From Phycisphaerales bacterium (GTDB taxonomy: Bacteria; Planctomycetota; Phycisphaerae; Phycisphaerales; SM1A02), in contig SIAP01000017.1 in NCBI GenBank assembly GCA_009691725.1, positions 1-41,583 on the forward strand: 41,583 nucleotides of DNA, written 5' to 3'. The position numbers were made by a program, and so were the translations under genes. Below the pieces are notes generated by a model. That model ran no database searches, was not told the origin of the DNA, and saw nothing but the letters and a program-made list of their open reading frames with translations. This document shows positions 1,993-41,228 of this stretch, piece after piece (the stretch's first letter is position 1; the number at the start of each line of letters is the position of its first letter).

Positions 1993-2049
1993 ATTGATTC
2001 AGCGCAGTCTGTCCTGCCGATGACAAACCCTATGGCAAGGAAGTCGCCC

Positions 2050-4650
2050 ATGGCTATCGCACGCCCGAGCAGTGGCTCGGGTGTTCTCCCCCCCGCCTCC
2101 GTCACAAACAAGATTCTGTGGCTCGCGAGCGCCGCGCTCTGGGTGTACCTCGCAACATCGCTGTTGAGTTTCTCGAGCACCGATTGGCCGAGTCACACCG
2201 TCGCGGTGCAGCAATATCCACCGGACAACCTGGGAGGACGGGTGGGCGCAGTGCTTGCCTACGCACTCTACGAGGGACTTGGACTGGGCATTTGGGTGAT
2301 CGTGCTCTGCGGCGGGTACGCGCTTGGCGTGATCGCATCGGGGCGAATGATTCCTCATCCAATCGTGCGTTTGATCGGCGCGGTGATTGCGATGCTTGCG
2401 GTCTCGACGCTGCACGCACTCTGGTTTCCGCATTGGGGATCACTCGCTGGCGCAGAGGCCGGACTTGTGCCGGGTTGGATGGCTGATCAAGTGTGGATAC
2501 GCTTTGGACCCATTGGGTCAAGCATCATTGTGCTCTGCGGTTGTCTGATTGGTTTCACCGTTGCTGTTGATGAAGTCGTGATGGCTCTCCCGGGTGCGCT
2601 TGTGAAGGCAGTTCGCGCACTCGATCCGGTTTGGGATTTTGATTATCGAGGATGCTTCGATCGCACAGTTCATTTCTTCACAGGTCGAAGTTCGAATCGA
2701 TTGCAGCCCGCAGTTGCGGCTGGTGCGATGTCAGATGGGGCGGATGTTGAGGACGAAAAGGGAATTGTGGAGAGCGCGCTCGAGCGTCGCCGTCGTCTGG
2801 TGCGAGAATCGCGTCAGGCGGCGGCGGCGGCGAGTCGAGGCGCCATCTTGGAAGCCGACGAGGATGAGGCTGGTGAGGCATACGCGTCCGAATCGCGCGC
2901 GGATGACGAGTCAGAATCCTCTGAAAACGCCGAGGAAACAGAGGATTCAACGCCAGCAGCGCCACCTGCTTTGACCGCGGCGCAATTGCGTGAACGCATC
3001 GCACGAATGCCGGTGCGCATGGCGGGAGTGAACAAGATTGTCGCTCGTGATGAGGACATTCCACGCGAAGTGGATTACACCGGCTACCGCTTTCCAACAC
3101 TCGATATGTTGGAAGACCCAGAAGAGAACTTCACTCTGCGCATGGAGTCCTTTGTGCGCGACCAGGCTGGTGTGCTGACCGAAGCGCTGCGAACCTATCA
3201 ACTCGATGGAGAAGTGGTCGGCATTGAAAGTGGACCCGTGGTCACGCTCTACTGCGTCGAGCTGGCGCCGGGAACGCGCGTCGCACGGCTCGAGACAATT
3301 GCCAAGGACATCGCGCGCACCCTCGGCGCACCCAACATCCGCATCATCGCCAACATGGCTGGCAGGACCGCTGTTGGAATCGAAGTGCCCAACCGTCAGA
3401 AGGAAAAGGTTCGGATGAAAGAGCTCATGTCCAGCGGACATGCAGAGGGGATGCGTCTGCCGATGTTTCTGGGAAAGGACAGTTCGGGCGAGCCGCTCGT
3501 GCTCGACCTCACCAAGATGCCGCACGTGCTGATCGCTGGAACAACGGGTTCTGGAAAGTCCGTCTGCATGAACAGCATCATCATGAGTTGGATCTACACC
3601 AAGCGACCAGATGAGTTGAAGTTGGTGCTCGTCGATCCAAAGATGGTGGAAATGAGTCAGTTCGCCAACATCCCCCATCTGATGGCACCCGTTGTGACGG
3701 ACATGAATCAGGCGGCTGGCATCCTGGAGTGGACCGTTGGCAAGATGGAGGAGCGATACGAACTCTTCCGCTCGACCGAAGTGCGTGATATTGCTGGATA
3801 CAACGCGCTGGGCGAGGAAGAACTCTTCGCTCGGCTCAAGCCAGAAGATGACACTGCTCGAGCGCGAATCCCAAAGAAACTGCCCTACATGGTCTTCGTG
3901 ATCGACGAGTTGGCCGATCTGATACTGACCAATAAGGAGGTCGAGACTCATATCGTCCGGATTGCGCAGAAGGCTCGCGCCGTCGGAATTCACTTGGTCC
4001 TCGCAACGCAGCGACCGCAGGCAAATGTCGTCACTGGACTCATCAAGGCAAACATGCCCTGTCGCATTGGCTTCAAAGTCGCCAGCGGAATGGACAGTCG
4101 AATTGTGCTCGACCAGAAGGGCGCGGAATTGCTCCTCGGCCAAGGCGACATGATGGTGCTGACTCCCTCTGGAAGCGGCGAACTTCGTCGCTGCCAGGGA
4201 ACCCTTGTCACGGATTCTGAGACCCGCAGAGTTGTCACATTCCTGAAGGATGTCGCAGCGCCGAGTTTTGAGCGAAGTCTGCTTGCTGTAAAGACTTCTG
4301 CGATCGGCAACGCCGTCGAGGGTGCGGAGATCGACCCCAACGAGAGGGACCCGATGTTCGACAAGGCGGTGGACATCCTGATCGAAACTGGCCGCGGATC
4401 GGTCAGTCTGTTGCAGCGGCGGCTCGCCATTGGATACGGTCGAGCCTCGCGACTCGTCGACCAAATGTCGGTGGCGGGAATTCTCTCAGACCACAAGGGA
4501 TCGGTTGCGCGAGAGGTGTTGATCACCGGCGATGACTGGGCGCGCATGAAGGCGATCGAGGCGGGCGGCGACGCGTCAGACGAACAGACAGGCGAACTCC
4601 TCGGCGAACGCTTAGGCGAACTGACTGTGGAGTCTGTCGACGACGAGTGA
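2050..4650 (+). CDS. ftsK: DNA translocase FtsK/SpoIIIE
   Basis: 866 residues. It is a membrane-anchored ATPase that pumps chromosomal DNA through the closing septum and activates XerCD recombination at dif. About four membrane segments lie at 22-41, 66-95, 105-123 and 148-176. An Ala/Glu/Ser-rich acidic linker spans about 225-310. The motor follows, with Walker A GTTGSGKS at 497-504 and Walker B VFVIDELADL near 615-624. A C-terminal winged-helix gamma domain at about 768-828 (RGSVSLLQRRLAIGYGRAS) would read KOPS-like polarity sequences. The start at 2050 is chosen for AAGGA at 2037-2041 with 8-nt spacing; in-frame ATGs at 2020 and 2032 lack one. All key motor residues are present, and the length is normal for a short-linker FtsK. 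Confidence 0.96.
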   Translation: MAIARPSSGSGVLPPASVTNKILWLASAALWVYLATSLLSFSSTDWPSHTVAVQQYPPDNLGGRVGAVLAYALYEGLGLGIWVIVLCGGYALGVIASGRMIPHPIVRLIGAVIAMLAVSTLHALWFPHWGSLAGAEAGLVPGWMADQVWIRFGPIGSSIIVLCGCLIGFTVAVDEVVMALPGALVKAVRALDPVWDFDYRGCFDRTVHFFTGRSSNRLQPAVAAGAMSDGADVEDEKGIVESALERRRRLVRESRQAAAAASRGAILEADEDEAGEAYASESRADDESESSENAEETEDSTPAAPPALTAAQLRERIARMPVRMAGVNKIVARDEDIPREVDYTGYRFPTLDMLEDPEENFTLRMESFVRDQAGVLTEALRTYQLDGEVVGIESGPVVTLYCVELAPGTRVARLETIAKDIARTLGAPNIRIIANMAGRTAVGIEVPNRQKEKVRMKELMSSGHAEGMRLPMFLGKDSSGEPLVLDLTKMPHVLIAGTTGSGKSVCMNSIIMSWIYTKRPDELKLVLVDPKMVEMSQFANIPHLMAPVVTDMNQAAGILEWTVGKMEERYELFRSTEVRDIAGYNALGEEELFARLKPEDDTARARIPKKLPYMVFVIDELADLILTNKEVETHIVRIAQKARAVGIHLVLATQRPQANVVTGLIKANMPCRIGFKVASGMDSRIVLDQKGAELLLGQGDMMVLTPSGSGELRRCQGTLVTDSETRRVVTFLKDVAAPSFERSLLAVKTSAIGNAVEGAEIDPNERDPMFDKAVDILIETGRGSVSLLQRRLAIGYGRASRLVDQMSVAGILSDHKGSVAREVLITGDDWARMKAIEAGGDASDEQTGELLGERLGELTVESVDDE

Positions 4651-4731: not shown

Positions 4732-4844
4732 TCGAGTCATAATTTGGTCTCGGCGCTGCTTGGTGTGAGTGGCTCGAATCGGACTTCCCGCACTCACGGA
4801 TCGTGGAGAATCGCCAAGCGCGCTCGCCAAGGAAGGTTGCCAAG

Positions 4845-7800
4845 ATGCCGTCTATCGCCCCCACTGTTCGAACTTCCACATACGACCTGCGTCGAGCGGA
4901 TGGATCGATGATCCTCGAACTGACGCCAACTGCGATTCGGCAGCTTTCGGCCACCAGTCAACTCTTTTCAGACGACATGGTGCGTCGCAGTGGCGAGGAG
5001 AAGTGGCGCGCTGCGTCGACGCTCAGTGGGCTGGCGGTCTGCACCAGACCAGTCATTGAACTCCCAGTGATTGCTTCAGTCGTGTTGGAACCTGCGATTG
5101 CTGAACCTGATCCGAGGATCGCGATTGCAGAGGCTCGAGTGATTGATCTGGAGCGTGCGCTCGATGCTGCTGCTCAAGAAGCGCAGGGTGCGCATGAAGA
5201 AGTCACGGCTGCGCACGCGGCCACTGCGCAAGAACTCGGAGCGTCGAGAATGCAACTTGCGCAGTCGCAGTTTGATCTTGCGCAGGCGAAGTCACAACTG
5301 GAGCAGGCGACGACGGAGCACGCTCAGGCGCACAATCAACTGCAGAGCGCGGTCGCCCAGTCGGAACAGCGCGCTGCCGAATCCTTGCAGGAATCACAGC
5401 GCACTGCCCAGATTTCTGCCCAGATTTCTGCCCAGAATTCTGCCCAGAATTCTGCCCAGAATTCTGCCCAGATGATGGCCCAGCTGACTGCCGAGATGGA
5501 GGGCAGGATTGCGACATTGACGCACGCACAGGATGAGTTGCAGTCCACGAACGAATCGCTTCAAACTCAATTGACTGATGGACCCACGGTTCGTGCGCTC
5601 GAAACTCTCGTGCGCGATCACGCCGCAGCGCAGCGGGCGTGCACCGATGCCATCCACCAACGCGATCAACTTGCTGCTTCGCTGACGCATTCAGAAGATG
5701 CGCTGCGGGTTGCTGATGAGTTCCGACGCGCGCTCGAAAAGACGAACGCACACCTCCATGCGAGTGCATCGGAACACACCGCCGAGTTGTCCGTCGCGCG
5801 CGCAAGCCTTGTTGAGCTTCAAGCGACCTGTTCGGCCCTCGAGCGCCGGACGACGAGTGCAGAGTCTGCGGTCGCAGAGTCCCGGCGTGAGCAACAAGAA
5901 GTCAACGCAGGTTCTGCGCTGATCGCACAGCAGCGCGACGCAGCAGTCAAGTCGCTCGAGGAAACCACCATCGCGCGCAATCAAGCGATCTCAGCGCATT
6001 CTGGAGCCATCCAAGAACGCGACACGGCGCGGGCGCTCGCCGATGCCATTCAAACAGAACTTGCGCGATCCCGTCGTGAGTTCGACGGGACGCTGCGTGA
6101 TTACAACGCTGCGGCAGCAGCACTTTCGCAGGCGTCTGCGCAACTCGAATCGATCACGGGAGAACTGGCACAATCACAATCCAGCGCAGGCGAGATGGTC
6201 GCACAGAACGAAGCGCTGCGCCTTGAACTCAGCGGCGCGGTCACCCGCCTCGCCATCGCCGACTCCGCAGCAGATGAGGCGAGAAAACTGCAAGCCGATG
6301 CAAACGTCTGGATTGCTCGAACCACGGAGCAACGCGATATCGCCGTCGCAGAGCGCGACGGCGCACTTGCCGAACGCGATTCGACGCGACTGGCGGTCGG
6401 TGCGACTCAGACGGATCTCGTCCGCATGCGCCGCGATTTCGATGCGCTGCAAGGCAACTACGACTCGATCGGCACAGCGCTGACTGAGCAAACCGCCCGA
6501 GCCGCGGGACTGGAAATCGCAGTCTCGCACGGTCGCACACAGAATGAACAACTCGCGCACGAGTGCGCCGATCGCGAGGCCGAAGTCGAGGCGTTGCTCG
6601 CCAACAGCACGACGCTCAATCAATGCATCAGTGACCACCTGAAGGAGCTGGATGCGATACGAGTCCGTGAGTCGGCCGTCGAAGCCAACCTCGCAGAGGC
6701 CCAGAATGACCGCGATTCCGCACGGTCTGAGTCCGCATCGTTGCAGAGCGACATCGCGGCGGCGCGCGAATCATTTGCGATCCAGTCGCAGCGACTCGCA
6801 ACGCTCGAACGAGAAATCGCCGAGGAGCGCAGCAGAATCGTCGCCCGAGATGAACTGATATTCCGCGATTCACTACGCTCGGAGGAACGCGATTCGGATA
6901 ATCGAAGGCTCAGCGCGAACCTCGCAGCACTCCGCGCCGATCACGACACGCAGCAGCGACGTGCGGAGGATGCGCTGAGCCAGATTGCGGCCGTGCAGCG
7001 TGATGTGGAGGAGAGTCGTGCAGTGGTCGCATCCCAACAAGCCGAGAGTGCCGCCGCACAAGTCGCCTTGGACAAACTGACCTTTCTCGAGGAGTCTGCG
7101 CGTGCATCACTGGTTGCCGCAAGTCGAGAGCGCGATGAACTCGCCAGTGCGCTCGCCACGACACAAGCTGCCGTTGCGTCGCGTGAACAACAAGTTTCTG
7201 CTGAACGCGGGCTTCGCGAGCAGGCTGAGGGAAGTTCTCGGCAGCTGCTCACGAGTTACGAAAAGCTCTCGCAAGACACTGGTCGCCGAATCACCGACCT
7301 TGAAGTCAAACTCACCGAGACCAACCACGACATGCAGGCCGTGCGAATTCGTGAGGAGCAAGCGCTGGCATCGCTCGCCGAAGCGCTTGCCCAAGCGAAG
7401 AGTGTTGCACAGCGCCTTGCAAGCGTCGAAGAGCAACGAGCTTCGATCACACGCGACCGAGACTCGCACGCCAAGCGCGCCGCCGCCGAGGCGTCTGCCA
7501 GAGCGGCCGCCGAGGACAAGATTGCTGCGGCAAACGAACGCGCCGCCAAGGCGGAACGCGATGCGCGATCGATGCATGAGCGATCCATTCAGGCCGCCAT
7601 GATCGCATTCGCAGGAACCAAGCAGCGCCTCGATGGTGACTACGCAAAGTCCTGCGAGGAACTTGGTGCGCTTGAGCAACTCGTCGCGGAGTCCAGCCAA
7701 AAGTTGATCGCATCGGGCGGCACCATCCCCGGAGTTCCACTGCTGCCCCGTGAGGCTGTGGCGCAGGTTGCAGCGAAAGCAGCCGCAGATGCGAAGGTGG

Positions 7801-10361
7801 CGGCAGAGCACGCGGCACGTCTCGCGGCACAGTCCGCGGCTCCCGCACCCGTGATTGCCCCTCCCGCTGCAAATGTGCAGCGCCCCGACACGCAACGCAG
7901 TCCTCCTTCGACGACCAACTTTCGAATGATCGATGCGGATGCTGATGACGCCCTGCCCTCGCGCCCTCAACCATCGCGCACGAGTGCCCCCGCGAGTGCC
8001 CCCGCGAATTCCTCGACGGGCGCAGCGGCGGGTGCGATTGGACGAGCAGGAGGACAGCGCGAGCGTGTCTCGCAACCACGCACGCAAGGCACGACTGCAT
8101 CAGACGACGACTCCAGTTCTCACGACGCTGAGCCGTCAACGGGAGCGCCGAAGCGGCGGAGTGTGCAATCGACTGCGGAAGCTCGCACACCCTCTGCCCT
8201 CGGATTGGTGAGTGATCCGTGGATCGATGATCACTGCGCCGCGCGTGTCGGGGAATCTGCGCCAGGCGCACTCGTCTTCACCGCGATGACTGCGTTGGCC
8301 ATCGCGATTACTGCCACCATCGCAGCAACTCCGGACTTCCTCGCACATGATCTGCGCGGCGCGTTCATGCGCATTGGTGTGTGGGTCGTCGGCGCGTCCA
8401 TCCTCGCAGGATGTGCGCAGCGCGTTGCGGTTCTCTGCAAGCCAACTTTGGCTCGGCGAATTCCGATACTGACTTCCGTGATGCTGTGTCTTGCGCCTCT
8501 GTCGCAACTGCTCCTCCAATCAGACACGCAACCAACACTGTCATGGGCGCCGTGGATCGGGCTCATGCTCATCGCGTCGGCCACTCTCTATCCGTGGTTG
8601 GTGATCTACGCAGCATGGCCAGATCCGCGACTCGCACGCAGCGACGCGTTCAGTGGACGGGCAAACTCCGCAGCGCTCACTGCGGCAGCGCTCGCAGTCG
8701 TCGCACTCGCTGCGACACTCACGCCATGGACGCTCGATGGCGCACGTGCGATCGCAACGCCAACAGGCGGGCTCTGTGCGATGCTCCTGCTCGCGCTCGC
8801 GACGACCGCAGTCTTCCAGTCACTTCGCGCGATCACCATCCTCTTGGCGTGGAGCGCGTGCATCGTGGTGGTCTCCACCCTTGCAGGAACGATCGCACAG
8901 GATGGCATCGCCATCACACTCCACACACTGACGCCTGCGCCGTGGATCGCACTCATCGCAGTCTGGAGCGCGCTCGCCGCATCGACGCTCGCTGCGGCTT
9001 GCTCACCAGAGCGCCTTCGAGATGCGCGCACCGCGATTGAAGATGACGACGCCCCCTCGCTCGTTGCGCATGAACGCGTCCATGCCGCGTGCGTGATGGC
9101 ACTCTGTGCGATCTTTCCGATCGCGCCAGCGCTTGTCGCCCTCCGACTCGTTCGGGAGCGATCACGCAGAGCGGAGAGCCAGCTGCGATCGCTCGCCAAC
9201 TTTGAATTGTGGTTCGCAGTCGCGCTGCTGCTCTCGCTCTTCATCGGGCTCGTCGCGCCACTCTCGGTCGGAGCGAGTGCAGCGCTGGGCCTCATCGCGA
9301 CGCATGGCGCTCTCTGCATCGGAGCGGCCATCACCCTGGGAGCAGATCGATTCGTGCGCTTCCCATCGCCCTTCGCAATGATCGCACGACCCGACACCGG
9401 ACTCGATCTTCCGACGCCACTCGTGACTGTCCAACGCACCGCCGAGCAATCTCTCCACCGACCGCTTGTTCATCCTTGCGGAACGACGACCTTTGGAGCG
9501 ATCACGCTCGTGATGGGTTGCCTCGCGGTGGCAAGTATCACCCACAATCTTGGATGGGCGCTCTCTCTGGGACCGATGGTCGGACTCGCCACATGGCTGC
9601 CATCGCTAATCGCATCGCGCTGCCGACACCAAGACACGATCGTGCTCTCTGCGCTCTCGACCGTAGCGCTTTCGGTCGTCACGGCTGCTGCGTTTGTGCT
9701 GGGAGTCACGAAGAATCCAGCCGAACTTCCCACGCTCATTGCGATCGCTTCAGGATGCGTTGGTTCATGGGCGCTGCTCGTTGGCTGGGCATTCCAAGGA
9801 CTGGATCAACTTCCAACACTGTTGCGTGCGTCGGCACGCCCTGAGTTCGACGATGCAGGTGATCCACTTGCACCGATTGATCGCCCCATCGCCTCTCGGC
9901 GTCGCGCGACCATCATGGGTCGAGTTGTCATGGGAAGTTGCGCTGCCGCATCCTTCGGCGCGATGGTCATGGTCCTTGCGCAATTCAATCCATTGCGGAT
10001 GTCCCCTGCGCTCTTCTGCGGCGCACTCTCCATCCTGTCCTCTGCGACGGTGATGCTCGTTGCCTACTTCGGCGGGGCTGCTCGCGTCGCAGTGAATGCA
10101 CGGCTCTATTCCGTGGTGCTGCTTGCAAGTTCATTCTTCGCAGCACTTCCATTTTTCTTCGTTGCGAGTGATGTCGGCGCGCTCGCAGCACTTGGCGCAC
10201 TTCCATTCTCGGCTGCAACTGCCGTCGTTGCACTTCTGGCTGCTGGCGTCGTCAACACACTGCGGCAATCCACCGCATCATCTCGCACACGCGCATCGAG
10301 GTCGTACCAATCCACCCGTCGGTCGCATCGCGCAAGCGCACCGCATGGAGTTCGATCATGA
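4845..10361 (+). CDS. Giant GYF-like / coiled-coil / polytopic membrane protein of unknown function
   Basis: About 1838 residues; I do not recognise the full architecture. Residues ~13-63 resemble a GYF_2-type module (ADGS...LTPTAIRQL...DDMVRRSGEEKWRAASTLSGL), which in other proteins is a small interaction domain. About 96-960 is continuous Ala/Glu/Gln/Arg-rich coiled coil with internal repeats: ERDTARALADAIQTEL near 391 and ERDSTRLAVGATQTDL near 510, plus five ISAQ/NSAQ units. About 960-1120 is low-complexity Ala/Pro/Ser. About 1135-1810 holds roughly 16-20 hydrophobic segments, followed by a basic tail. There is no signal peptide, so the coil should be cytoplasmic. The ATG at 4845 is chosen for AAGGAAGG at 4829-4836; a GTG at 4803 is in frame. 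It overlaps the deaminase by 4 nt. A cell-envelope scaffold role is a guess. Confidence 0.9.
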   Translation: MPSIAPTVRTSTYDLRRADGSMILELTPTAIRQLSATSQLFSDDMVRRSGEEKWRAASTLSGLAVCTRPVIELPVIASVVLEPAIAEPDPRIAIAEARVIDLERALDAAAQEAQGAHEEVTAAHAATAQELGASRMQLAQSQFDLAQAKSQLEQATTEHAQAHNQLQSAVAQSEQRAAESLQESQRTAQISAQISAQNSAQNSAQNSAQMMAQLTAEMEGRIATLTHAQDELQSTNESLQTQLTDGPTVRALETLVRDHAAAQRACTDAIHQRDQLAASLTHSEDALRVADEFRRALEKTNAHLHASASEHTAELSVARASLVELQATCSALERRTTSAESAVAESRREQQEVNAGSALIAQQRDAAVKSLEETTIARNQAISAHSGAIQERDTARALADAIQTELARSRREFDGTLRDYNAAAAALSQASAQLESITGELAQSQSSAGEMVAQNEALRLELSGAVTRLAIADSAADEARKLQADANVWIARTTEQRDIAVAERDGALAERDSTRLAVGATQTDLVRMRRDFDALQGNYDSIGTALTEQTARAAGLEIAVSHGRTQNEQLAHECADREAEVEALLANSTTLNQCISDHLKELDAIRVRESAVEANLAEAQNDRDSARSESASLQSDIAAARESFAIQSQRLATLEREIAEERSRIVARDELIFRDSLRSEERDSDNRRLSANLAALRADHDTQQRRAEDALSQIAAVQRDVEESRAVVASQQAESAAAQVALDKLTFLEESARASLVAASRERDELASALATTQAAVASREQQVSAERGLREQAEGSSRQLLTSYEKLSQDTGRRITDLEVKLTETNHDMQAVRIREEQALASLAEALAQAKSVAQRLASVEEQRASITRDRDSHAKRAAAEASARAAAEDKIAAANERAAKAERDARSMHERSIQAAMIAFAGTKQRLDGDYAKSCEELGALEQLVAESSQKLIASGGTIPGVPLLPREAVAQVAAKAAADAKVAAEHAARLAAQSAAPAPVIAPPAANVQRPDTQRSPPSTTNFRMIDADADDALPSRPQPSRTSAPASAPANSSTGAAAGAIGRAGGQRERVSQPRTQGTTASDDDSSSHDAEPSTGAPKRRSVQSTAEARTPSALGLVSDPWIDDHCAARVGESAPGALVFTAMTALAIAITATIAATPDFLAHDLRGAFMRIGVWVVGASILAGCAQRVAVLCKPTLARRIPILTSVMLCLAPLSQLLLQSDTQPTLSWAPWIGLMLIASATLYPWLVIYAAWPDPRLARSDAFSGRANSAALTAAALAVVALAATLTPWTLDGARAIATPTGGLCAMLLLALATTAVFQSLRAITILLAWSACIVVVSTLAGTIAQDGIAITLHTLTPAPWIALIAVWSALAASTLAAACSPERLRDARTAIEDDDAPSLVAHERVHAACVMALCAIFPIAPALVALRLVRERSRRAESQLRSLANFELWFAVALLLSLFIGLVAPLSVGASAALGLIATHGALCIGAAITLGADRFVRFPSPFAMIARPDTGLDLPTPLVTVQRTAEQSLHRPLVHPCGTTTFGAITLVMGCLAVASITHNLGWALSLGPMVGLATWLPSLIASRCRHQDTIVLSALSTVALSVVTAAAFVLGVTKNPAELPTLIAIASGCVGSWALLVGWAFQGLDQLPTLLRASARPEFDDAGDPLAPIDRPIASRRRATIMGRVVMGSCAAASFGAMVMVLAQFNPLRMSPALFCGALSILSSATVMLVAYFGGAARVAVNARLYSVVLLASSFFAALPFFFVASDVGALAALGALPFSAATAVVALLAAGVVNTLRQSTASSRTRASRSYQSTRRSHRASAPHGVRS
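5412..5471 (+). repeat. In-frame 12-bp tandem repeat, five units
   Basis: Units are 5412-5423, 5424-5435, 5436-5447, 5448-5459 and 5460-5471, each reading ATTTCTGCCCAG or AATTCTGCCCAG and encoding ISAQ or NSAQ in the coiled-coil region. The first two units match each other exactly, as do the last three, with one base separating the two sets. This points to recent copy-number expansion. Confidence 0.95.
7981..8004 (+). repeat. 12-bp tandem duplication in the linker of the giant protein
   Basis: CGAGTGCCCCCG occurs twice in direct succession (7981-7992 and 7993-8004) and keeps the frame, giving SAPASAPA in the low-complexity linker before the membrane region. Confidence 0.9.
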
Positions 10362-10807
10362 ATCACGACATCATCGAGCGCGGTCTGGCAGCAGCGATCG
10401 AACAGGCCGAGAAGGGTTGGTGCGAGGGAGGAATCCCAATTGGCTCGTCCCTACTGAATGAAGAGGGCGAAATCGTCGCCCGTGGACACAATCAGCGGGT
10501 GCAATCGGGTGATCCAACGGCGCACGCCGAAGTGGATTGTGTCCGCAAGGCGGGGCGACGCCGAGACTGGCATCGACTCACATTGGTGTCGACCCTTTCG
10601 CCCTGCCCAATGTGCTCCGGCACGGCGATCCTCTTCAAGATCCCTCGGGTCATCATCGGTGAGAACAAGACATTTCTCGGCGCGGAAGAGTGGATGCGTG
10701 CGAGCGGGGTTCAATTGCTCGTCCTCGATGACCCCCGTTGCATCGCATTGATGGAGCGCATGAAGCGCGAGAAACCAGACCTGTGGGCTGAAGACATCGG
10801 CGAGTAA
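10358..10807 (+). CDS. Cytosine deaminase, fungal Fcy1-like (CDA superfamily)
   Basis: 149 residues. It probably deaminates cytosine to uracil for pyrimidine salvage with a zinc-bound water. Zinc ligands are His56 (in TAHAE), Cys83 and Cys86 (SPCPMC), with Glu58 as the proton shuttle. As I recall yeast Fcy1, the resemblance extends beyond the core: EGGIPIGSSL, RGHNQR, GENKTF, VLDDPRC and the terminal WAEDIGE all have close counterparts there. This is unlike bacterial CodA, which is an amidohydrolase. Its ATG overlaps the stop of the giant gene (ATGA), suggesting translational coupling. A more general nucleoside or guanine deaminase is the alternative, but the C-terminal tail favours cytosine. 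Confidence 0.88.
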   Translation: MNHDIIERGLAAAIEQAEKGWCEGGIPIGSSLLNEEGEIVARGHNQRVQSGDPTAHAEVDCVRKAGRRRDWHRLTLVSTLSPCPMCSGTAILFKIPRVIIGENKTFLGAEEWMRASGVQLLVLDDPRCIALMERMKREKPDLWAEDIGE

Positions 10808-10862: not shown

Positions 10863-11831
10863 TTAGCGACTCATCAAAGTCGCACGCAAGCCCTCTGCGA
10901 ATGGCATCACGGGTTCGTACCCGATGAGCGCCTTCGCCGCGACAACTGACGCGAGACTGTCGCGAACATCACCCTGACGGGTCGGCTCAAACTTCGGTGA
11001 AATCTTTGTGGCGAGAAGTCCATTCATCTGATCGAGCAGCTCGAGCAACGTGAACTTGTCCGCGCAACCGATATTGACCATCTCACCGTGCAGTTGATTC
11101 GTGCATGATCCCGCCAGCAAATTTGCGTGGACCGCGTTGTCGACATGCGTGAAGTCGCGGGTTTGACCACCATCGCCAAAGATGGTTGGCGAGAGTCCTT
11201 GCCGCAGCGCTGTCGCAAACTTCGGGATCACCGCGGCGTACTGCGAATCCGGTCTTTGACGTGGTCCAAAGATATTGAAGTAGCGCAGGCTGATCGTGGA
11301 CAACCCATAGCAGATCGCCCACGCACGGCAGAGATGCTCGCCTTCGAGCTTGGCCACTGCGTATGGTGAGCGCGGATCTGGAACCATCGTCTCGATCTTG
11401 GGCAGCGTTGGCGTGTCGCCGTACGCCGAACTCGAAGCGGAATACACCACACGCGCAACGCCTGCCGCTCGCGCAGCTTGGAGCACCATCATCGTGCCAG
11501 TCGCGTTGGTCTCCTGAAACCGTTCGGGTGATTCAAGCGATGCGGGCACAGAACCAAGAGCCGCAAGATGGAACAGCACCCGCGCGCCACGCGCCGCGTC
11601 CGCCATCGACGAACGATCCAAGATGCTCGCCTCGATCAATCGAACTCGATCGGACAGTCCAACGAGATTCTCACGACGACCGTTGGAACAATCATCAATG
11701 ACGGTGATGTGCGCACCGAGTTGATCGAGCGTGGCAACGATGTGCGAACCGATAAACCCAGCGCCACCAGTGACGCAAACAGAACAATCCCGATACGAAT
11801 TGCGATGCTGGTCGAGCCAGCGCGGGGTCAC
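10863..11831 (-). CDS. NAD-dependent epimerase/dehydratase (UDP-glucose 4-epimerase-like, extended SDR)
   Basis: 322 residues. Extended short-chain dehydrogenases of this type interconvert or dehydrate nucleotide sugars for polysaccharide or LPS synthesis. The Rossmann motif TGGAGFIGS is at about 21-29, the Ser region YSASSSAYG near 131, and the catalytic YAVAK has Tyr157 and Lys161. The ending, with the [11 protein letters not shown]-type tail, fits GalE/WbpP-like enzymes. The GTG at 11831 overlaps the atpA stop as GTGA, so the two are probably translationally coupled; a GTG at 11843 is an alternative. It occupies the place where atpG would be expected. The exact sugar substrate is unknown. 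Confidence 0.88.
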
Positions 11832-13384
11832 GCTGGCTTCCACGATTGCTTGAATGAACGCAGCGCAGCGAGGAACTTGTCTTCAAGCCCCTTGAACGAC
11901 TTGGACTTGGATAGCTCATCGCGCAGCGACTTCTGCGGACCCTTGAAGTAACTGAGCATGTCGCTCTCGAACGCGTTGACCTTGTCAATTGCAACATCAT
12001 CGAGGAGCCCCTTGGATCCGGCGAACATCGAGATGCACTGGTCAATTGTGTCGAAAGGCGTGTACTGACCCTGCTTGAGAATCTGCACCATGCGCGCACC
12101 GCGATCGAGTTGACGCTTGCTCGCAGCATCGAGTTCTGTTCCAAGTTGAGCGAACGCTTCGAGTTCTCGGTAAGCGGCCAAATCGAGACGCAGGGATCCT
12201 GCGACTTCCTTCATCGCCTTGATCTGCGCGGCTCCACCCACGCGACTCACGGAGATACCGACGTTGATGGCGGGACGCACACCTGCCGAGAACAGTTCCG
12301 GCTGGAGGTAAATCTGACCATCGGTGATCGAGATCACATTCGTTGGGATGTACGCCGAGACATCGCCTTCTTGCGTCTCGATGATCGGGAGTGCGGTGAG
12401 CGATCCGCCACCATTCTCCTTGGACAACTTCGTTGATCGCTCAAGCAATCGCGAATGCAGATAGAAGACGTCGCCGGGATACGCCTCGCGCCCTGGTGGT
12501 CGACGGAGCAAGAGCGAGAGTTCGCGGTACGCAACGGCCTGCTTCGACAAATCGTCGTAGACGCAGAGCACATGCTTTGGACCGGTGTAACTCGGGTCCT
12601 TGCCCTTCCACATGAAGTACTCGCCCATCGCACATCCGGAATATGGCGCGATGTACTGCATCGGAGCAGACGACGACGCGCCTGCGTTCACGATGATCGT
12701 GTAGTCCATTGCGCCGTGCTTCTTGAGCGTCTCAACGACGCCTGCAACGGTCGAGTCCTTCTGACCGACGGCCACATAGATGCACACCACAGCATCGGGA
12801 GTTCCCCAGTATTGCCGCTGATTGATGATGCAGTCGAGGCAGACTGCCGTCTTGCCAGTCTTGCGATCACCGATGACGAGTTCGCGCTGACCACGTCCCA
12901 CGGGAATCATCGCGTCGACAGCCTTGATGCCGAACTGCATCGGTTCCTTCACCGGCTGCCGCTTGGAGATTCCAGGCGCGACGATGTCGACCTTTCCGGT
13001 TTCTTGGGTGCCAAGCGGAGCGCCGCCGTCGATGGGGTATCCCAGCGGGTCGACAACCCGACCGAGCAACTGCGGACCCACGGGAACTTCGAGGAGTCTT
13101 CCCGTCGAGCGCACTGTGTCGCCCTCTCGCACACGAGTCGCATCGCCGAAGAGCGCGATTCCAACGGTGTCGGACTCGAGATTCATCACCTGCCCGATGA
13201 TGCGACCGCCGGTGGACTCGCATTCGACGAGTTCACCCGCCATGGCCTTGCCGAGTCCATACACGCGCGCAATACCGTCGCCAACTTCGACGACCTGTCC
13301 AACATCGCTGATTTCGAGCGTGTTGCCAAACTGTTCAATTTCTTGGCGGATGACAGATGCGATTTCGTCGGTCTTGATCTTCAT
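11828..13384 (-). CDS. atpA: F1 ATP synthase alpha subunit
   Basis: 518 residues, near the usual ~510. This is the non-catalytic nucleotide-binding subunit of the F1 hexamer. The P-loop GDRKTGKTA lies near 172-180. The N-terminal beta-barrel ([25 protein letters not shown]) and the conserved [13 protein letters not shown] segment with the alpha-type arginine are present. AAGGA lies upstream of the ATG. It is the last ATP-synthase gene in this operon. The gamma, beta and epsilon genes do not follow; a nucleotide-sugar epimerase does, with a 4-nt overlap. Confidence 0.97.
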
Positions 13385-13413
13385 AACAGGGTCCTTGAAA
13401 AAGAGATGCGGGA

Positions 13414-14028
13414 TTAGCCAATGAATCGTTTCGAGTCGCGACGAACGGTCGCGCCTCCCGATTCAATCATTGCGTGTTGCAGACGGCGCAGACGGGTTGC
13501 GACGGAACCATCGACGAGTTGATCGCCGATTTGGAGCTTGATGCCACCAATCATTGCGGGATCGGAGTAGTAGTGAAAGATCGCTTCCTTGCCGATGGCG
13601 GCGCGCAGCTTTTCGCGCATCAGAGACTCGGTGGACTCGCCCATCGACTTCCCATCAACTGTGTAGACATCGACCTCGGTCATGCCGAAGAGTTCCTGGA
13701 GCAGCGCGTCGTATGCCTCTCCAATGGCGAGCAGGTGTCCGAGCCGTCCCTTGCGATTCAGCGTGATCACGAATCGATAGAGCAGATCGCTCACGCGACC
13801 CTTGAGCACGCGATCAATCGTCTCCGTGCGGCGCGCGCGTGACACGGCTGGCGATCCGAGGAACGACACGAACTTCTTGTCGGCGGCGAACACTTCGCAG
13901 AGTGCAGCGAGTTCTTCGCCAACCTGCTTCGCACCAGAGTTTCCGTCACCGGTCAACGCGCCCTGTGCCACGGCCAGTTCGAGCAATGCGCTCGCATAGA
14001 CCTTGGCGATTTCGTTGTGTGCGCTCAT
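13414..14028 (-). CDS. atpH: F1 ATP synthase delta subunit (OSCP)
   Basis: 204 residues, somewhat longer than the usual ~180. It joins the peripheral stalk to the top of F1. The N-terminal helical domain opens [17 protein letters not shown], and the C-terminal part has the conserved [25 protein letters not shown] segment close to the end. It sits 25 nt after atpF and 29 nt before atpA. No clear Shine-Dalgarno is seen. The extra length is mostly in the loop around residues 20-35. Confidence 0.94.
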
Positions 14029-14053
14029 GATCGAGTGGGTTCAGCGGTGCGAC

Positions 14054-14566
14054 TCACCCGCGCGTGGAACTCATTCCCGCAAGTGATTGCTCAACCATCC
14101 GCTTCTGATCTGCTGGAGTGATCTCGCGTTCCAGAATCCGACCGGCGATTGCGACAGCCAACGACGCAGCATGCGCTTCCAGTTCTGCGATGGCGGTTCG
14201 CCGAGCATTCTCGATCTCTTCACCCGCACGGCGGGCTCGGTCAGCGAGATCGCTCTCGTTCTTGGCTCGGATCTCGTCGCCCAAACGAAGAGCCGCGGCT
14301 CGTGCCTCGCGCAACATTCGATCCGACTCTTCCAGCGCCGCAGCGAGTTTGGCCTCAAACTCCTTCTGCTTCAGACCAGCCGCGACGCGAGCCGCCTCGG
14401 CAGATTCGATCTCGTGGAGGATCTTGGCATTGCGATCGTCAAGACCCTTGAGGATCTTCGGCCAGACGAACACTCCCAGCGCGAGTGCGACGATGCTGAA
14501 GACCACGATGGTGGTCAAGAACGGAAGCAGGTTGAATGCGAGCGGATCTGATGAAGCGATCAACAT
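14054..14566 (-). CDS. atpF: F0 ATP synthase b subunit
   Basis: 170 residues. It forms the peripheral stalk dimer. One N-terminal membrane helix lies at about 13-33 (NLLPFLTTIVVFSIVALALGVFVWP), followed by a long charged amphipathic helix (about 38-160) typical of the b dimer. GAGGAGAG lies about 6 nt upstream of the ATG at 14566, a strong ribosome-binding site. Order and spacing after atpE are as in standard F-type operons. Only one b gene is seen; there is no b-prime copy. Confidence 0.95.
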   Translation of the reverse strand: MLIASSDPLAFNLLPFLTTIVVFSIVALALGVFVWPKILKGLDDRNAKILHEIESAEAARVAAGLKQKEFEAKLAAALEESDRMLREARAAALRLGDEIRAKNESDLADRARRAGEEIENARRTAIAELEAHAASLAVAIAGRILEREITPADQKRMVEQSLAGMSSTRG

Positions 14567-14641
14567 GAGACTCTCCTCAGGCGCATCACTCCCCCAAGCA
14601 CATGCTTGGGATCATGCACGCAGAAAACGACAAGGCGCGAA

Positions 14642-14953
14642 TCACGTGAAGTTCATGAATCCCGCAACGACTGCGAAGAGCGCGACGCCTTCGACAAACG
14701 CCGCAGTCAAAATCATGTTGATGAAGATGCGGGGCGCCATTTCTGGCTGGCGCGCGATCGCCTCAACAGCACTGCCGCCGATTCGGCCGATTCCGATACC
14801 AGCTCCGACTGCGCCAAGACCGCACGCCAGACCGGCACCGAGGCCCTTGCCTTGGTTCACTGCTTCAACAGCAGCAACAGGATCAGCCGCCGAAGCGAAG
14901 TTGACGAAAACGAGTCCTGCGGTCATTGCGAGGGCGAGATGAGTGAGCTTCAT
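14642..14953 (-). CDS. atpE: F0 ATP synthase c subunit with N-terminal signal-like extension
   Basis: 103 residues. It is the proton-carrying ring subunit. Two hairpin helices are at about 36-60 (Gly/Ala-rich, GAVGAGIGIGRIGG) and 76-100, joined by the conserved ARQPE loop. The ion-binding carboxylate is Glu88 (AFVEGVALF). Ligands typical of sodium-type c subunits are absent: the Gln of helix 1 is Ile and the Ser after Glu is Gly. Proton coupling is therefore inferred. Residues 1-22 (MKLTHLALAMTAGLVF...ASA) look like a cleavable signal peptide, which some bacteria add to this subunit. ATG 14953 is chosen for GGAGA about 10 nt upstream. Confidence 0.95.
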   Translation of the reverse strand: MKLTHLALAMTAGLVFVNFASAADPVAAVEAVNQGKGLGAGLACGLGAVGAGIGIGRIGGSAVEAIARQPEMAPRIFINMILTAAFVEGVALFAVVAGFMNFT

Positions 14954-15054
14954 GTGTGTCGAGTCTCCGTTTGGAAAGCAGTGTTCAAGGGGCGATTCTG
15001 AAAAGACCTCGCGAGCGAACATCGCCGCAAGGGGTGGACAATATAGCGATTTTT

Positions 15055-16056
15055 CTAATGTTGGGGATGCGCCACGCCTGAAGATGCGTGGCTCGCGGTA
15101 GCGCCGGCGCCGCCACCGCCCACGATCTCGTGCTCGGCGTGCCCCGCCGCATCCTCGTGCGCCATCAGGCTGATGAAGACTGCCGTCAAGAACATGAAAA
15201 TGAAGGCCTGCAGCCCTGCAACAAAGACCTCGAGAAAGGTAATCAGGATGGCGCCGATGCCGCTGACGATGGTGATCGCCGTCACGGAGGTCGTTCCCAG
15301 CCCAGCCTTGATCGCCATCGCTCCGAACATCGTGACCGTGATCAGCAAGGTGTGACCTGCAACAATGTTGGCGAAGAGTCGGATGGCGAGCGCGGCGGGT
15401 TTGACGAAAAGTCCAAAGAACTCCACCGCAAAGATGATCGGCACAACGAGCCAGAGGAAAATGGATCCGTGAACGAGCTCGTGACCACCGCACAAGTGTT
15501 CCAGCCAACCCTTGACTCCGAGTTCTCGAAACCCTTGAGCCTGAATGACGATAAACGCGATCAGTGCGAGCGCGCCCGTCACAGAAATGCTCGCAGTTGC
15601 CGCTCCACCAAAGATCGCAGAGGTTTGGTGTTCTTGCAGATTGAACGACTTGCCCATCAATCCATAGATCGCGTCCTGGATTTCGACGAATGGGATCAAT
15701 CCCATGACATTCAGCGTCAAAATGAAGAAAAACATCGAGAGCAAGAAGGAGAGATAACGCTTGGTGAGCCGCTCGCCCATCACTGGAACAAGCATCTCGT
15801 TGCGCAGATAGGCGACCACAACTTCGACAACCGCGGAGAAAGATCCATTTGGGAGATACCGTCGATTGCCCATCGAGGCAGGACCGGTCTCGATCGCCTT
15901 GGCGGCCTTATGCAGCACGAAGAAGAGACCCACCGCGCAGACCAACACGGTGATCATGCTCAGCATCACGGGATTGTCCCACAGGGTCAGTTCGAAGACA
16001 CCCTTGTCGACGATGTGCGCAACAGGGTCTGACTCGCTCGCTAGGAAAACTGACAT
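15055..16056 (-). CDS. atpB: F0 ATP synthase a subunit with His-rich tail
   Basis: 333 residues, longer than the usual ~270. This membrane subunit forms the proton half-channels against the c ring. The essential arginine is in ALAIRLFANIVAGH, around residue 225. LTLNVMGLIPF and FVAGLQAFIFMFLTAVFISL are further conserved helices. The C-terminal ~35 residues (from HEDAAGHAEHE onward) are His/Gly/Ala-rich and extend past the normal end, possibly binding metal or forming a flexible tail. GAGGTG lies 8 nt before the ATG. A 139-bp gap with a short tandem repeat separates it from the upstream atpI-like gene. Confidence 0.96.
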   Translation of the reverse strand: MSVFLASESDPVAHIVDKGVFELTLWDNPVMLSMITVLVCAVGLFFVLHKAAKAIETGPASMGNRRYLPNGSFSAVVEVVVAYLRNEMLVPVMGERLTKRYLSFLLSMFFFILTLNVMGLIPFVEIQDAIYGLMGKSFNLQEHQTSAIFGGAATASISVTGALALIAFIVIQAQGFRELGVKGWLEHLCGGHELVHGSIFLWLVVPIIFAVEFFGLFVKPAALAIRLFANIVAGHTLLITVTMFGAMAIKAGLGTTSVTAITIVSGIGAILITFLEVFVAGLQAFIFMFLTAVFISLMAHEDAAGHAEHEIVGGGGAGATASHASSGVAHPQH

Positions 16057-17724: not shown

Positions 17725-17764
17725 GCGGGAGACCTGCATCATTTGCGGGAGACCTGCATCATTT
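17725..17764. repeat. 20-bp perfect tandem duplication at the 3' end of the AsmA-like gene
   Basis: The 20-bp unit beginning GCGGGAGACC and ending TGCATCATTT occurs at 17725-17744 and again at 17745-17764. The second copy contains the stop codon of the AsmA-like gene, so the repeat duplicated the gene's last codons into the intergenic gap without changing the protein. Confidence 0.95.
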
Positions 17765-20700
17765 GCCAAAGAGTCCCTTGAGCTTGTCGATCGCGCCGCC
17801 GATGTCCTTGATCCCCTTCTCAATCTGTTTCACATTGATCGCTGAAGCGTCGAAAACCAGTTTGACTTTGCTCGCGAGCGGTTCCTTCTTGCCGTTGACC
17901 TCGCCGAGCGGACCGCTGAGTGTGATGTCTGCTTGAACGAGCTCGCCCGGGTCGATCGGCAACTCTGCGATCGCCTCACTGAGTTTGACCATCGTCGCAG
18001 AGAGTGCGCCCGAGGCGCCTCCCACACTGCGCGCGAGAGATGCGAGTGGATAGCGACAGGTGATCGCGTTTGCGTATGGCGGTGTGCGCACAAGGTTGAT
18101 GTCGCCCGACAACTTCAGCGTCTGTTGCCACTGATTGCCCAGTTTTCCAGCGTGAATCACAAAGTCCCCGTAGGTGAGTTGGCCGCCGCGCACGGTCAAC
18201 AGGAGCGGATTGATTTCCGCTGGGATTGTCTCCGACTTGGCTTGCTGCGCGAGAAGCAAGACCCCGAGGACCTGATTGCTGCGCACGATTTCGACATTGC
18301 CGATTTCGATGCGCGCGTCAAGATCGAGCCCCGCGAGATTGCCATCGAGCGGATACGCAGCCTGCGAAAGCGTCACCACGATCGGCGGCGCAGTGCGAAT
18401 ATCGGCGAGTACTGGACTCACTGGTTCGAGAATGCGACGCCGCAGGGCGGAATTGAGTGTGAAGGTGCAGCGCAGGGGATTCGCTGGAGTCACGATCGCT
18501 TTCCCATTCGATAAGAGCAGGCTCGGTACTGCGACGTCGAGATACTGCGATTTGAGAGTCGCTGCAATTCGAGTCTCTTCGACGCCGTGAGCGTTTGCGA
18601 CGAGCGTTGTGTCAACGGTCGCATCCACGGTTGGACCGAGCGCTTCAACGAGTTGTCCTCCTTGACCTGCGACCGCATCAATCATGGCAGTCGCAACACC
18701 CTGCAACAGCGCATGGGCTGTCCATGCTGCTGCGCGTGGATTGAATGCACCGGTTGCGGTGACGAGTCGGACTCCTGAAGCGGTGGCAGCGATCGTCCCG
18801 CCTCGCATTCCGCCACTCGTGAGCGTGAGCGCGACCGAGTCTGCAACGCGCGATGACTGCAGCGTGACTTTCGTCTGAGCCACCGAGAATGTGGGCATTC
18901 CCTTGGGTTCGATGTCCAGTGCGGCAAGCGTCAGTGCTGCGTCGATCGCAGCATTGCTGATGCCACTCGATGGAAGCGTGAGGGCATTGATCGCAAGCGT
19001 TGCGTTGACATCACCCACGCGAGTCAGCGCCGCGGTGGCGTCCTGTGTTTCCTGCAACCAATCGACAAGCGCGAGCACCAGTGAGCCTGGCGCCTGCAGT
19101 TGCACTTGGCTCTCGCGCAGAGTCAACGGTTGATCGGATGCGCCAAAAAGTGCGCGCAAGTCTCCTGTGGCATCAACCGACAGAGACAGCGCACTCGCTG
19201 CGGACTCGTTCGCTTGGACCGTTCCACGCACGGATGCGGTGAGTGCCCTGGCGAGTTGTTGCGAACGAACCGAGACGGTCGTTGCGCCAACCGTGAGCTT
19301 TGACTTGCCTGCGGGAGTAACGCTGGTCGGTGCAAGAGCGATCGACGCATCGATCGATCCACTCTCGAGGTCTGCATTTCCAAGCGCGAGCGCAGTGATC
19401 TGGATCTCGGCGGCGATGTCGCCGAGTTGCGTGACGGCCAGCGGTGCGGAATCCGTCCCGTGCGCCCACTGCGCAAGCGCGAGTGCGAGTGGCCCTGGAG
19501 CTTTGATCGAGATGTGGCTGTCTGAAAGCACAAGCGGTTCGCCTGTTGCGCCGAGCAGCGAGTTCAGTTTCCCCTTCGCGTCGATCGAGAGAGCAAGCGC
19601 ACCTGCAGCGGCAGTCCCGACTGTGAAACTGCCCGCGACTGAAGCCTTCGCACGATCCGAAAGACGCGGACTGCTGATGGTCACGTTGAGTTGTTCAAAG
19701 GCAATCGGAGGGCGACCCGGCAGCGAGCACGATCCAGGCTCAATCACCGCAGTCATGACAGCGGACGCATCCTCCGCCTTCCCGTTCCATTTGAAAGTGT
19801 CAATGTCGACCGAACCAATGATGGATGGTCCACTGCCAAGTCTCAGAAGCGCAGCTGGAACATCGAGTGTCGCAGTCGTTTTGCGAAGTTCGAATCCTGA
19901 TGGGGTGAGCTCCCCTGCGCCGGTGAGCGTGCACCGTGGCAGCGTCGAATTGGCGGTGAATGAATCACCACGCGCGGTGCGATTGAAAGTGGCGCGCACT
20001 CGACCAGGTCCTGCCAACATCGGCGTGAGCTCGCCGGCATCGATCACCTTGGAAAGCGTCTCTCCAGCGGGCACGGTGATGTCGGCGGTCGATCGCCACG
20101 ACTCTGCGGAATCGTCGGCGGTGGCGAAGGTGGCAGAGATCGTTCCGGCGTCCGCTGCGCCATCGAACACCCGCGCACCAAGCGAGGCATCGATCCCACT
20201 GATGGTTCCGTCAGCGCGAGTCGTCAATGTGACGGTGGTCTTGAGCTGCGCCAGCGTGACGCCATGGGTCAGCCCCGGGCACCTGGCGATCTCGATGCGA
20301 TCGGACGAAATCGACGCGACGACTTTGGCTGGAACAATCCTTCCAACACGCAACTCCTGAAAACTCAATACCGCTGGCGCGATCAGGACTGCGAGATTGG
20401 ACGCACCAGCGGTCGCCACACTTGGAGGCGCGTACTTCGCGAGGACCGCTGGCGAAACGGTCACCGCGACTGAGATTGCTCCGGTGGAAAGACTTTCGTT
20501 GCTCCACGAACAACTGGTCGCAATCCGCGCTTCGCTCAACTGCAGCGAGATCGTCGCGTTGCCGGCATCGAACCCTCCATCGTTGTCGATCTGCGCCGCG
20601 ATCGACGAGATGTTGCACGAAGCGAGGGTCTCCTTGAGGTTGATCGGCAACCAGCTGGCAGTCGCCAGCGTGGACGCATCCAGATGGATCGTTCCCCTCG

Positions 20701-22234: not shown

Positions 22235-22244
22235 CAGAGCGCAC

Positions 22245-34979: not shown

Positions 34980-35005
34980 CACAGGACGATACCGCTCGCG
35001 ACCAC

Positions 35006-40686: not shown

Positions 40687-41228
40687 ATCGCGCTTCCCAA
40701 GCCCATGACTCTGCGCCACGCGCTGATTTGTCCAAGATGCATCATGTTGTGAGCGAGGCACATGAACGAAACGAGTGCGCCAATCGTCGGAGCGCGCTCG
40801 ACCATGTGCGCAACTGGATTTGGTTTGGCGAACTGTGCGTCCGCCACCGTTGGAAGCAACAACGCAACCCTGTTCCACCCCTTTGTGAAGTGGATCACAA
40901 GTTCATCCTTCGATGGATAGTGGCCCGGCGTCGCAACACACGGCGCACCATTCTTGAAGAGCGGCTCGTAGGTGGATGGAAGCGCGTCCGCTTGCGGATG
41001 CCCCATCATCTCGCAGACCCACGGGGCGTAGAGCGCGAGATGTCCGATGCAGAACGCAGGGCTGTTCAGGTCTGACTTTGGCATCACCGCGAACTGGTCA
41101 GCAGGAATCGACACGAGCAACTTCTCTGCATAACCCATCGACATCTTGAGCGCGGGTGCGAGCGATGATCCCAGCATGGTGGTGGTGGTGACCGTCGTGG
41201 AGCAGCACGCGTTCGTCACAGTGGTCAT
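40683..41228 (-). CDS. DinB-like four-helix metal-binding protein
   Basis: 181 residues. DinB/YfiT-like proteins hold a metal with three histidines; many act as thiol-dependent S-transferases. The likely ligands are His63 (FCIGHLALY), His160 and His164 (LAHNMMHLGQISAWR), in the usual helix 2 and helix 4 places. ATG 41228 is chosen; TACCCT lies 6 nt upstream, so it may have its own promoter although it starts 28 nt after the preceding gene. Six residues of the first 18 are Thr and two are Cys. Its stop overlaps the next start as GTGA. Confidence 0.85.
   Translation of the reverse strand: MTTVTNACCSTTVTTTTMLGSSLAPALKMSMGYAEKLLVSIPADQFAVMPKSDLNSPAFCIGHLALYAPWVCEMMGHPQADALPSTYEPLFKNGAPCVATPGHYPSKDELVIHFTKGWNRVALLLPTVADAQFAKPNPVAHMVERAPTIGALVSFMCLAHNMMHLGQISAWRRVMGLGSAM

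Follow-up and report, generated by a model that had tools for sequence, protein, structure and literature searches.

The stretch of DNA analysed here (the window) is the 41,583-nucleotide contig SIAP01000017.1 of a Phycisphaerales bacterium (assembly GCA_009691725.1), whose genome of 2.07 Mb is 92.6% complete. Between a gene for FtsK and a gene for a deaminase lies a single giant gene (Table 1). Its product starts with a small GYF_2-like head and continues through a very long coiled coil, a linker rich in alanine, proline, and serine, and a membrane half, ending in a basic tail. This order of parts, with its coordinates, had been proposed in the original prediction, and is confirmed by the analysis.

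Table 1. Features of the giant gene and its neighbours (positions in the window; residues counted from the conserved ATG)
Feature	Position	Strand	Remarks
ftsK, neighbour	2020..4650	+	Pfam FtsK_SpoIIIE, FtsK_alpha, FtsK_gamma, FtsK_4TM
Ribosome-binding-site-like AAGGAAGG	4829..4836	+	Precedes the conserved ATG; read from the sequence
Whole giant gene	4845..10361	+	1838 codons, single uninterrupted frame; same frame in 12 spanning relatives
GYF_2-like head	4878..5033	+	Residues ~12-63; Pfam stretch 4923-5033; PF14237, window below cut-off
Variable-length N-terminal coiled coil, internal repeats	5115..6341	+	Residues 91-499
Fixed-length coiled coil	6342..7724	+	Residues 500-960; 461 residues, indel-free in 13 sequences
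Ala/Pro/Ser linker	7725..8222	+	Residues 961-1126; holds the conserved GRAGGQRERVSQPR stretch
First membrane block	8271..9080	+	Hydrophobic segments 1-8
Probable DUF4870/HOTT (Tic20-like) domain	9081..9380	+	Residues ~1413-1512; segment 9 (best read as re-entrant), then a charged loop and a pair of membrane helices
Conserved loop, predicted cytoplasmic	9336..9479	+	Residues 1498-1545
Second membrane block	9480..10265	+	Hydrophobic segments 12-19
Basic C-terminal tail, predicted cytoplasmic	10266..10358	+	Residues 1808-1838
Deaminase, presumably TadA-like, neighbour	10358..10807	+	Pfam dCMP_cyt_deam_1; first 4 nt shared with the end of the giant gene

The deaminase, presumably TadA-like, was recognised by Pfam in the window and in loci L020 and L028, and elsewhere by its PCxMC motif. 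Its four-nucleotide overlap with the giant gene occurs in the window and, among the 11 relatives in which the junction is visible, in 10; the exception, L019, has the deaminase frame in the corresponding position with an ambiguous start, and L029 ends too early. Elsewhere in the window, which holds no tRNA, genes for ATP synthase subunits a, b, delta, and alpha (10863-16056, reverse strand) are followed not by gamma and beta but by an epimerase on the same strand (10863-11843). The epimerase frame overlaps that of the alpha subunit, and relatives, L020 and L024 among them, have frames of equal length. Three long frames, also on the reverse strand, have no Pfam match at E ≤ 1e-5. One of 1506 amino acids (17759-22279), with an N-terminal stretch that looks hydrophobic by eye, is reminiscent of large AsmA-like envelope proteins; the others encode 919 (38119-40878) and 690 (32970-35042) amino acids.

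A gene that joins such dissimilar parts might, of course, be the product of an assembly or frame error that fused two genes. Relatives decide this. Loci were gathered through ftsK by taking the best 80 of 282 ftsK relatives; a frame matching the N-terminal 130 residues of the giant protein (E ≤ 0.05) was present in 16 of the 80. Twelve of these span the gene, and four (L023, L025, L030, and L031) leave the contig. A weak seventeenth locus, L032, was seen at E 0.005 in a smaller search and is absent from the set of 16. The nearest ftsK matches come from metagenome-assembled genome (MAG) records titled Phycisphaerales, Planctomycetia, Singulisphaera, or uncultured bacterium. The closest among the matches listed, L019 (a record titled Phycisphaerales, Baikal-deep), is 88% identical. 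Three loci (L020, L022, and L027) are titled Singulisphaera sp. GP187, have ftsK genes 81-87% identical to that of the window, and carry the giant gene; the species label on them is probably wrong.

In the window, the frame is open on the forward strand from a GTG at 4803 to the stop at 10361. The conserved start is the ATG at 4845, which gives a protein of 1838 amino acids, and all 13 genes have GGAAGG a short way 5' of this ATG in the alignment. In all 12 relatives whose contigs span the gene, a single frame runs through head, coil, linker, and membrane half. The stop is reached in 11 of them; the contig of L029 runs out within the last residues. Counted from the conserved ATG, the relatives encode 1655-1782 amino acids, making the range 1655-1838 over the 13 proteins.

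Thus, the single frame of ~1838 codons at 4845-10361 that was originally proposed is borne out by the open frame, the conserved ATG, and the 12 relatives, which keep the whole architecture. The prediction had named as its own undoing the finding of relatives that encode the two halves separately; none of the 12 spanning relatives splits the gene. These are separate MAG loci that share the single frame, and they already refute the idea of an artefact, in favour of which no evidence was found. We give it virtually no credence.

The ratio of nonsynonymous to synonymous substitution is low throughout all parts of the gene. Over five regions and four close pairs, simple Nei-Gojobori-type estimates of dN/dS, in which several dS values exceed 1, fall at ~0.05-0.24. 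The fixed-length coil has the lowest value in every pair (0.05-0.10, versus 0.11-0.15 for the membrane half). A fifth pair, the window and L019, gives ~0.14-0.30 with synonymous sites near saturation (pS 0.64-0.70). The giant is a real, conserved gene of one planctomycete genus.

How narrowly it is distributed was seen in searches for the membrane half that covered the genus, the family, and the class, together with plasmid and phage records. With the membrane half of the window as the query, 17 of the genus's 18 other genomes gave a match, and none of 42 outside the genus did (one draw). The single genome of the genus lacking a match, G001, is 82% complete. Profile A1 matched 4 of 101 genomes of the family, all of the same genus (1 of 45 genera), and profile A4 matched only the window's own genome among 101 of the class (1 of 82 genera). 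The fixed coil reached slightly further as a query, matching 7 of 121 family genomes in 2 of 45 genera (E ≤ 1e-6). The additional genome, from the second genus, contains L032. In that locus ftsK is followed by a GYF_2-like head and a coil, and the frame is cut off at 650 amino acids by the end of the contig. The membrane half was not found in that genome at E ≤ 10; its absence is no sign of a split gene, because the genome is incomplete (86%) and fragmented (410 contigs). Within these class-level draws, then, the membrane half is found in one genus only, and head plus coil in one sister genus. An origin in phages, plasmids, or defence systems was considered and set aside; the whole protein has no match in PHROGs or PADLOC, and its membrane half has none in plasmid or phage records.

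The coil is the largest part of the protein. The stretch corresponding to residues 91-960 holds 691-870 coil residues across the 13 proteins, and this variation is not spread evenly. In residues 500-960, the alignment of 13 sequences has 461 columns with no gap and no insertion, so changes in coil length are confined to the part before residue 500. When the entire protein is taken in blocks of 50 residues, the two with the highest conservation (751-800 and 851-900) both fall in the fixed coil, and in the window residues 501-960 include no proline. Freedom to change length before residue 500, set against 461 residues free of indels after it, is what would be expected if the register and length of a rod matter.

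The periodicity of hydrophobic residues points the same way. Averaged over 13 sequences, hydropathy in residues 500-960 shows a 3.5-residue period of strength 2.83, above the maximum of 2.30 in 200 shuffles. In the window by itself, residues 90-500 give 2.81 against a shuffle maximum of 2.32, and residues 500-960 give 1.90, below the shuffle maximum of 2.14; it is for this region that the averaged profile is needed. A single heptad register runs from 500 to ~780, followed by two shifts. A continuous coil of ~860 residues had been foreseen; the window has 870, and the heptad period of the averaged profile lies above all 200 shuffles. Internal repeats had been foreseen as well, and a 12-bp DNA tandem repeat is indeed present in the variable coil (5.8 copies, 5404-5472). 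A longer duplication at the protein level, of ~382-485 onto 501-636, is possible; the self-match has 27% identity, and its score, computed without correction for composition, is inflated by the composition of the coil. The rise of a coiled coil is 0.1485 nm per residue, and 691-870 residues would therefore extend over 103-129 nm. We infer that the coil forms an oligomeric cytoplasmic rod of ~100-130 nm.

At the amino end of this putative rod, the head of the window matches the Pfam family GYF_2 (PF14237) over residues 27-63 with 20.9 bits (21.3 bits in a genome scan), where the cut-off is 25.8. The family is recognisable at E ≤ 1 in all 14 rows of the head alignment, which includes L032, the best at 5e-6. 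The GYF-like amino terminus of the original prediction thus stands as a family resemblance; as the window itself falls under the Pfam cut-off, we call the head GYF_2-like. GYF domains bind proline-rich or other peptides. The GP pair of this order's typical GYF_2 domains (L112, L152, and L153) is absent from the head of the window, which makes peptide binding uncertain. Elsewhere in the window's genome, the frame G000:C51:3425-3754 (L113) has two GYF_2 stretches over the cut-off, followed by what appear by eye to be a hydrophobic segment and Asp-rich repeats.

At the other end of the protein, the averaged hydropathy profile of the membrane half has 19 hydrophobic segments, agreeing with the ~16-20 membrane helices first proposed. 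Their topology was examined by the positive-inside rule, with the chain starting inside, under 20 hypotheses: crossing by every segment, or by all but one of the 19. The hypothesis in which segment 9 does not cross wins in 13 of 13 sequences, which are kin and hence not 13 independent tests. Its mean inside-minus-outside difference in Lys plus Arg is +36.6, compared with +29.7 for the next best, -15.4 if all cross, and +21.5 for the best pair of non-crossing segments. The 19 segments are therefore best read as 18 crossings and one re-entrant segment. Under these counts, the head side, the long loops, and the tail (a mean of 7.9 Lys plus Arg in residues 1808-1838 over 13 sequences) are all on one side. 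Both chain ends would then be cytoplasmic, and the anchor would be made of ~18 crossings and the re-entrant segment.

A clear match of this half to a known transporter family would have overturned the original prediction, and was looked for in sequence and in fold. The whole membrane half of the window has no Pfam match, and among PDB sequences it meets only three antibody chains (E at least 3.1). An AlphaFold model of the half (mean pLDDT 72.5, pTM 0.72) has no Foldseek match in the PDB at E ≤ 0.001; the top rows are sugar and organic-cation transporters of the MFS type, with E at least 0.84 and probability at most 0.15, and Tic20 is not among the best 50 of the 54 matches. With no significant match in Pfam, NCBIfam, PDB sequences, or PDB folds, the identification of the half as a known transporter was rejected; nor was there a significant match to enzymes. 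A match of the L033 segment to DUF389 (E 0.014) is at chance level.

One part of the membrane half does recall a named family. When membrane halves were scanned over their whole length by hmmscan, 5 of 15 rows (one a duplicate) matched DUF4870, the best at E 0.00096. When 166-residue segments from 9 of the 13 proteins were compared with PF09685, 8 matched at E ≤ 10 and 6 at E ≤ 0.01; L033 had no match at E ≤ 10. Only the segment of L019 (E 7.8e-6) exceeds the cut-off of 25 bits, with 26.3; that of the window scores 20.0. NCBIfam gave the segment single-member matches only, the best at E 0.011. A scan of the window's genome at E ≤ 1 locates DUF4870 at a single site, 9081-9380, where the match (E 6.4e-4) falls short of the cut-off. 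The same scan finds matches in 12 of 14 control genomes, 3 of them over the cut-off, which makes this result weak by itself. With the threshold tightened to E ≤ 1e-5, the giant's segment is missed in G004, G007, G010, and G011 as well as in the genome of the window.

Profiles were compared as well. Against 30 of the best DUF4870 stretches of the order, the segment matches with E 2.4e-5 and 4.2e-5 (probability 75 and 70%); seven other segment profiles used as controls give E of at least 0.057, and three reversed profiles at least 0.28. The register is as expected, with ..RAESQLRSLANFELW.. aligned on ..VDDQGKEALNFQIT.., and the aligned stretch begins at the end of segment 9. When the query is the entire membrane half, the match weakens to E 0.0024 (probability 12%). 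A search by profile comparison for a duplicate of the segment elsewhere in the half gave no convincing pair: the score of tm1b with tm1c comes from their shared overlap, and tm1b matches hott at E 0.003 with a probability of 10%.

The predicted structure of the segment agrees with this reading. In an AF2 model (block means of pLDDT 79-93, residues 11-100), it is a helix, a break, and a helix, followed by two helices. The loop is Arg-rich except for one invariant acidic residue (E50 of alignment A5). Paulus et al. (PMC11628618) describe HOTT and Tic20 as having a re-entrant-like first helix, a charged loop, and two helices. The DUF4870 match has as its first helix segment 9, the one chosen as non-crossing, and the charge pattern fits best if this segment is re-entrant, as in Tic20/HOTT. 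Foldseek found no PDB match to the segment model at E ≤ 0.001, and Tic20 is not among the best 50 of 83 matches. This, with the score of the window under the cut-off, makes the assignment of residues ~1413-1512 to DUF4870/HOTT, the bacterial Tic20-like family, probable rather than proven.

In the order, DUF4870 is widespread: 103 of 151 genomes have a match at E ≤ 1e-5. Five of its regions, picked for long frames or kinship, were opened. Two of the five hold a compact gene for GYF_2 followed by DUF4870, both over their cut-offs: L152, in G015 of the same genus, and L153, in G112 of the same family. Regions chosen in this way show that compact GYF_2-DUF4870 proteins exist, not how frequent they are; among 30 further top-scoring DUF4870 loci viewed by eye, most encode short DUF4870 proteins. 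The other three of the five regions, from three genomes of genus g46 in the same family (L149, L150, and L151), hold frames of 945, 947, and 984 amino acids that appear to combine DUF4870 with a kinase-like region and were dismissed as relatives of the giant. In L151, the only one of the three scanned, the region beyond DUF4870 matches the protein kinase domain of Pfam.

What might such a protein do? The reading that we prefer, at even odds (a probability of about 0.5), is that the giant is an inner-membrane protein of a single genus, of the GYF_2-DUF4870 (HOTT) type expanded in its middle, and acts as a long-reach cytoplasmic tether or scaffold. In such a device, the head, at the far end of the rod, would bind a partner, either cytoplasmic or bound to a membrane. 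Distance would be set by the part of the rod that has a fixed length, the linker would supply flexibility, and the half that bears the HOTT segment would hold or recruit membrane proteins. An inner-membrane-anchored cytoplasmic tether, judged from the sequences, is the most likely function, and this part of the original prediction fits the conservation, the heptad periodicity, and the topology. Against the reading as a whole weighs the fact that both named domains are below their cut-offs in the window (GYF_2 20.9, DUF4870 20.0 bits). Further, ~18 crossings exceed what a mere anchor needs, which suggests that the membrane half has some additional activity.

The giant could instead be a device for targeting or inserting membrane proteins, in which HOTT receives clients that the GYF head and the coil have captured and delivered, much as in MamF-like proteins and Tic20. 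According to PMC11628618, the targeting of some magnetosome membrane proteins requires MamF-like HOTT proteins, which are also proposed to insert them. In this paper, the one found that studies the HOTT family, organelle protein targeting by these members is the only tested role, and the family is described as otherwise uncharacterised. The giant does have a HOTT-like segment, but under the cut-off in the window, and with an acidic residue, E50, that is invariant among the arginines of the charged loop; we consider this account improbable. The conserved loops of the membrane half, with invariant R, H, D, P, and W residues, and its ~18 crossings would suit a genus-specific transporter, flippase, or membrane enzyme, with the coil serving only oligomerisation or regulation. 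The MFS-type rows at the top of the fold search would suit it as well, were any database match significant. On such an account it is also awkward that dN/dS is lower in the fixed coil than in the membrane half in four pairs, and we hold it to be distinctly unlikely, slightly more so than a role with FtsK.

A scaffold for division or chromosome segregation that works with FtsK is itself rather unlikely. Its attraction is the gene order: ftsK immediately precedes the giant gene, in the window as in the loci examined, and, given the overlap with the deaminase gene, all three may be transcribed as a unit. The original prediction had drawn from this neighbourhood a possible relevance to unusual cell division. 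The loci were, of course, collected through ftsK, and so the constancy of the adjacency is partly by construction. Moreover, in L059, L060, and L067 the deaminase directly follows ftsK without the giant gene, which may thus have been inserted into such a pair, and in other loci of the sample ftsK has other neighbours. We know of no division role for the deaminase. Of the original prediction, the tether is the part that fits, and the link to division is doubtful. In six other loci (L039, L044, L046, L047, L049, and L082, the last ending at a contig end), ftsK is followed by a frame of 550-629 amino acids in place of the giant; by eye these look like nuclease/helicase proteins, NERD-UvrD-like. 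Frames of similar length follow ftsK in L045 and L048.

A bolder extension of the tether would make it a single-protein targeting scaffold. Here, a Tic20/HOTT domain built into a tether more than 100 nm long would capture distant clients or opposing membranes and organise the inner membrane of these small-genome planctomycetes. This is speculative, and we rate it lowest of the functional proposals. Planctomycetes have unusual membranes and division, and a conserved rod with its anchor, at this size, is a tangible candidate for a factor that shapes or tethers those membranes. The giant joins GYF_2 to the Tic20-like HOTT, both of them bacterial domains that are little understood, in one conserved protein whose middle appears to have grown into a rod of fixed register. 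This second, very different context for HOTT helps in asking what that domain does.

The literature on its domains and on planctomycetes (mostly open-access) yielded no published description of the giant protein, and the original prediction knew of no named family with its order of parts. This holds for the whole fusion with its rod, but not for the components, since the membrane half holds a probable DUF4870/HOTT domain and the order of GYF_2 then DUF4870 exists already. The likeness to SMC and other long coiled-coil proteins lies in the composition of the coil, and the other parts of the giant have no match there. Kinship with SMC was rejected: SMC_prok_B matches with 45.6 bits against a cut-off of 567.35, over coil only (residues 396-664), a generic coil similarity. 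MamF-like proteins are small, and DUF4870 frames of the order are mostly short; the segment of the giant, in contrast, is inside an 18-crossing half fused to a rod, and has no PDB fold match. With HOTT/DUF4870, MamF-like proteins, and Tic20, as PMC11628618 presents them, it shares a segment best read as re-entrant, the charged loop, and the two helices, together with a weak HMM and profile match. Planctomycete proteins with paired GYF domains and a TM-rich region (PMC7159879) resemble it in joining GYF to membrane helices, but have two GYF domains and are coupled to GTPase-centred conflict systems; the available text of that source mentions no long coil.

A close comparison is with the compact proteins L152 and L153. 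In these, as in the giant, GYF_2 precedes DUF4870 and the membrane end comes last. Counted from where GYF_2 begins, they are ~190-220 residues long, with no coil and with the DUF4870 helices only; the giant adds 691-870 coil residues and ~16 crossings. It looks like such a pair expanded by a rod of ~100-130 nm and ~16 crossings. Because the order is kept, with the rod between and the extra helices around, descent from a compact GYF_2-DUF4870 pair is the origin that we prefer. Judged by its domains, the giant would then be a variant of GYF_2-HOTT membrane proteins, and not a protein without kin.
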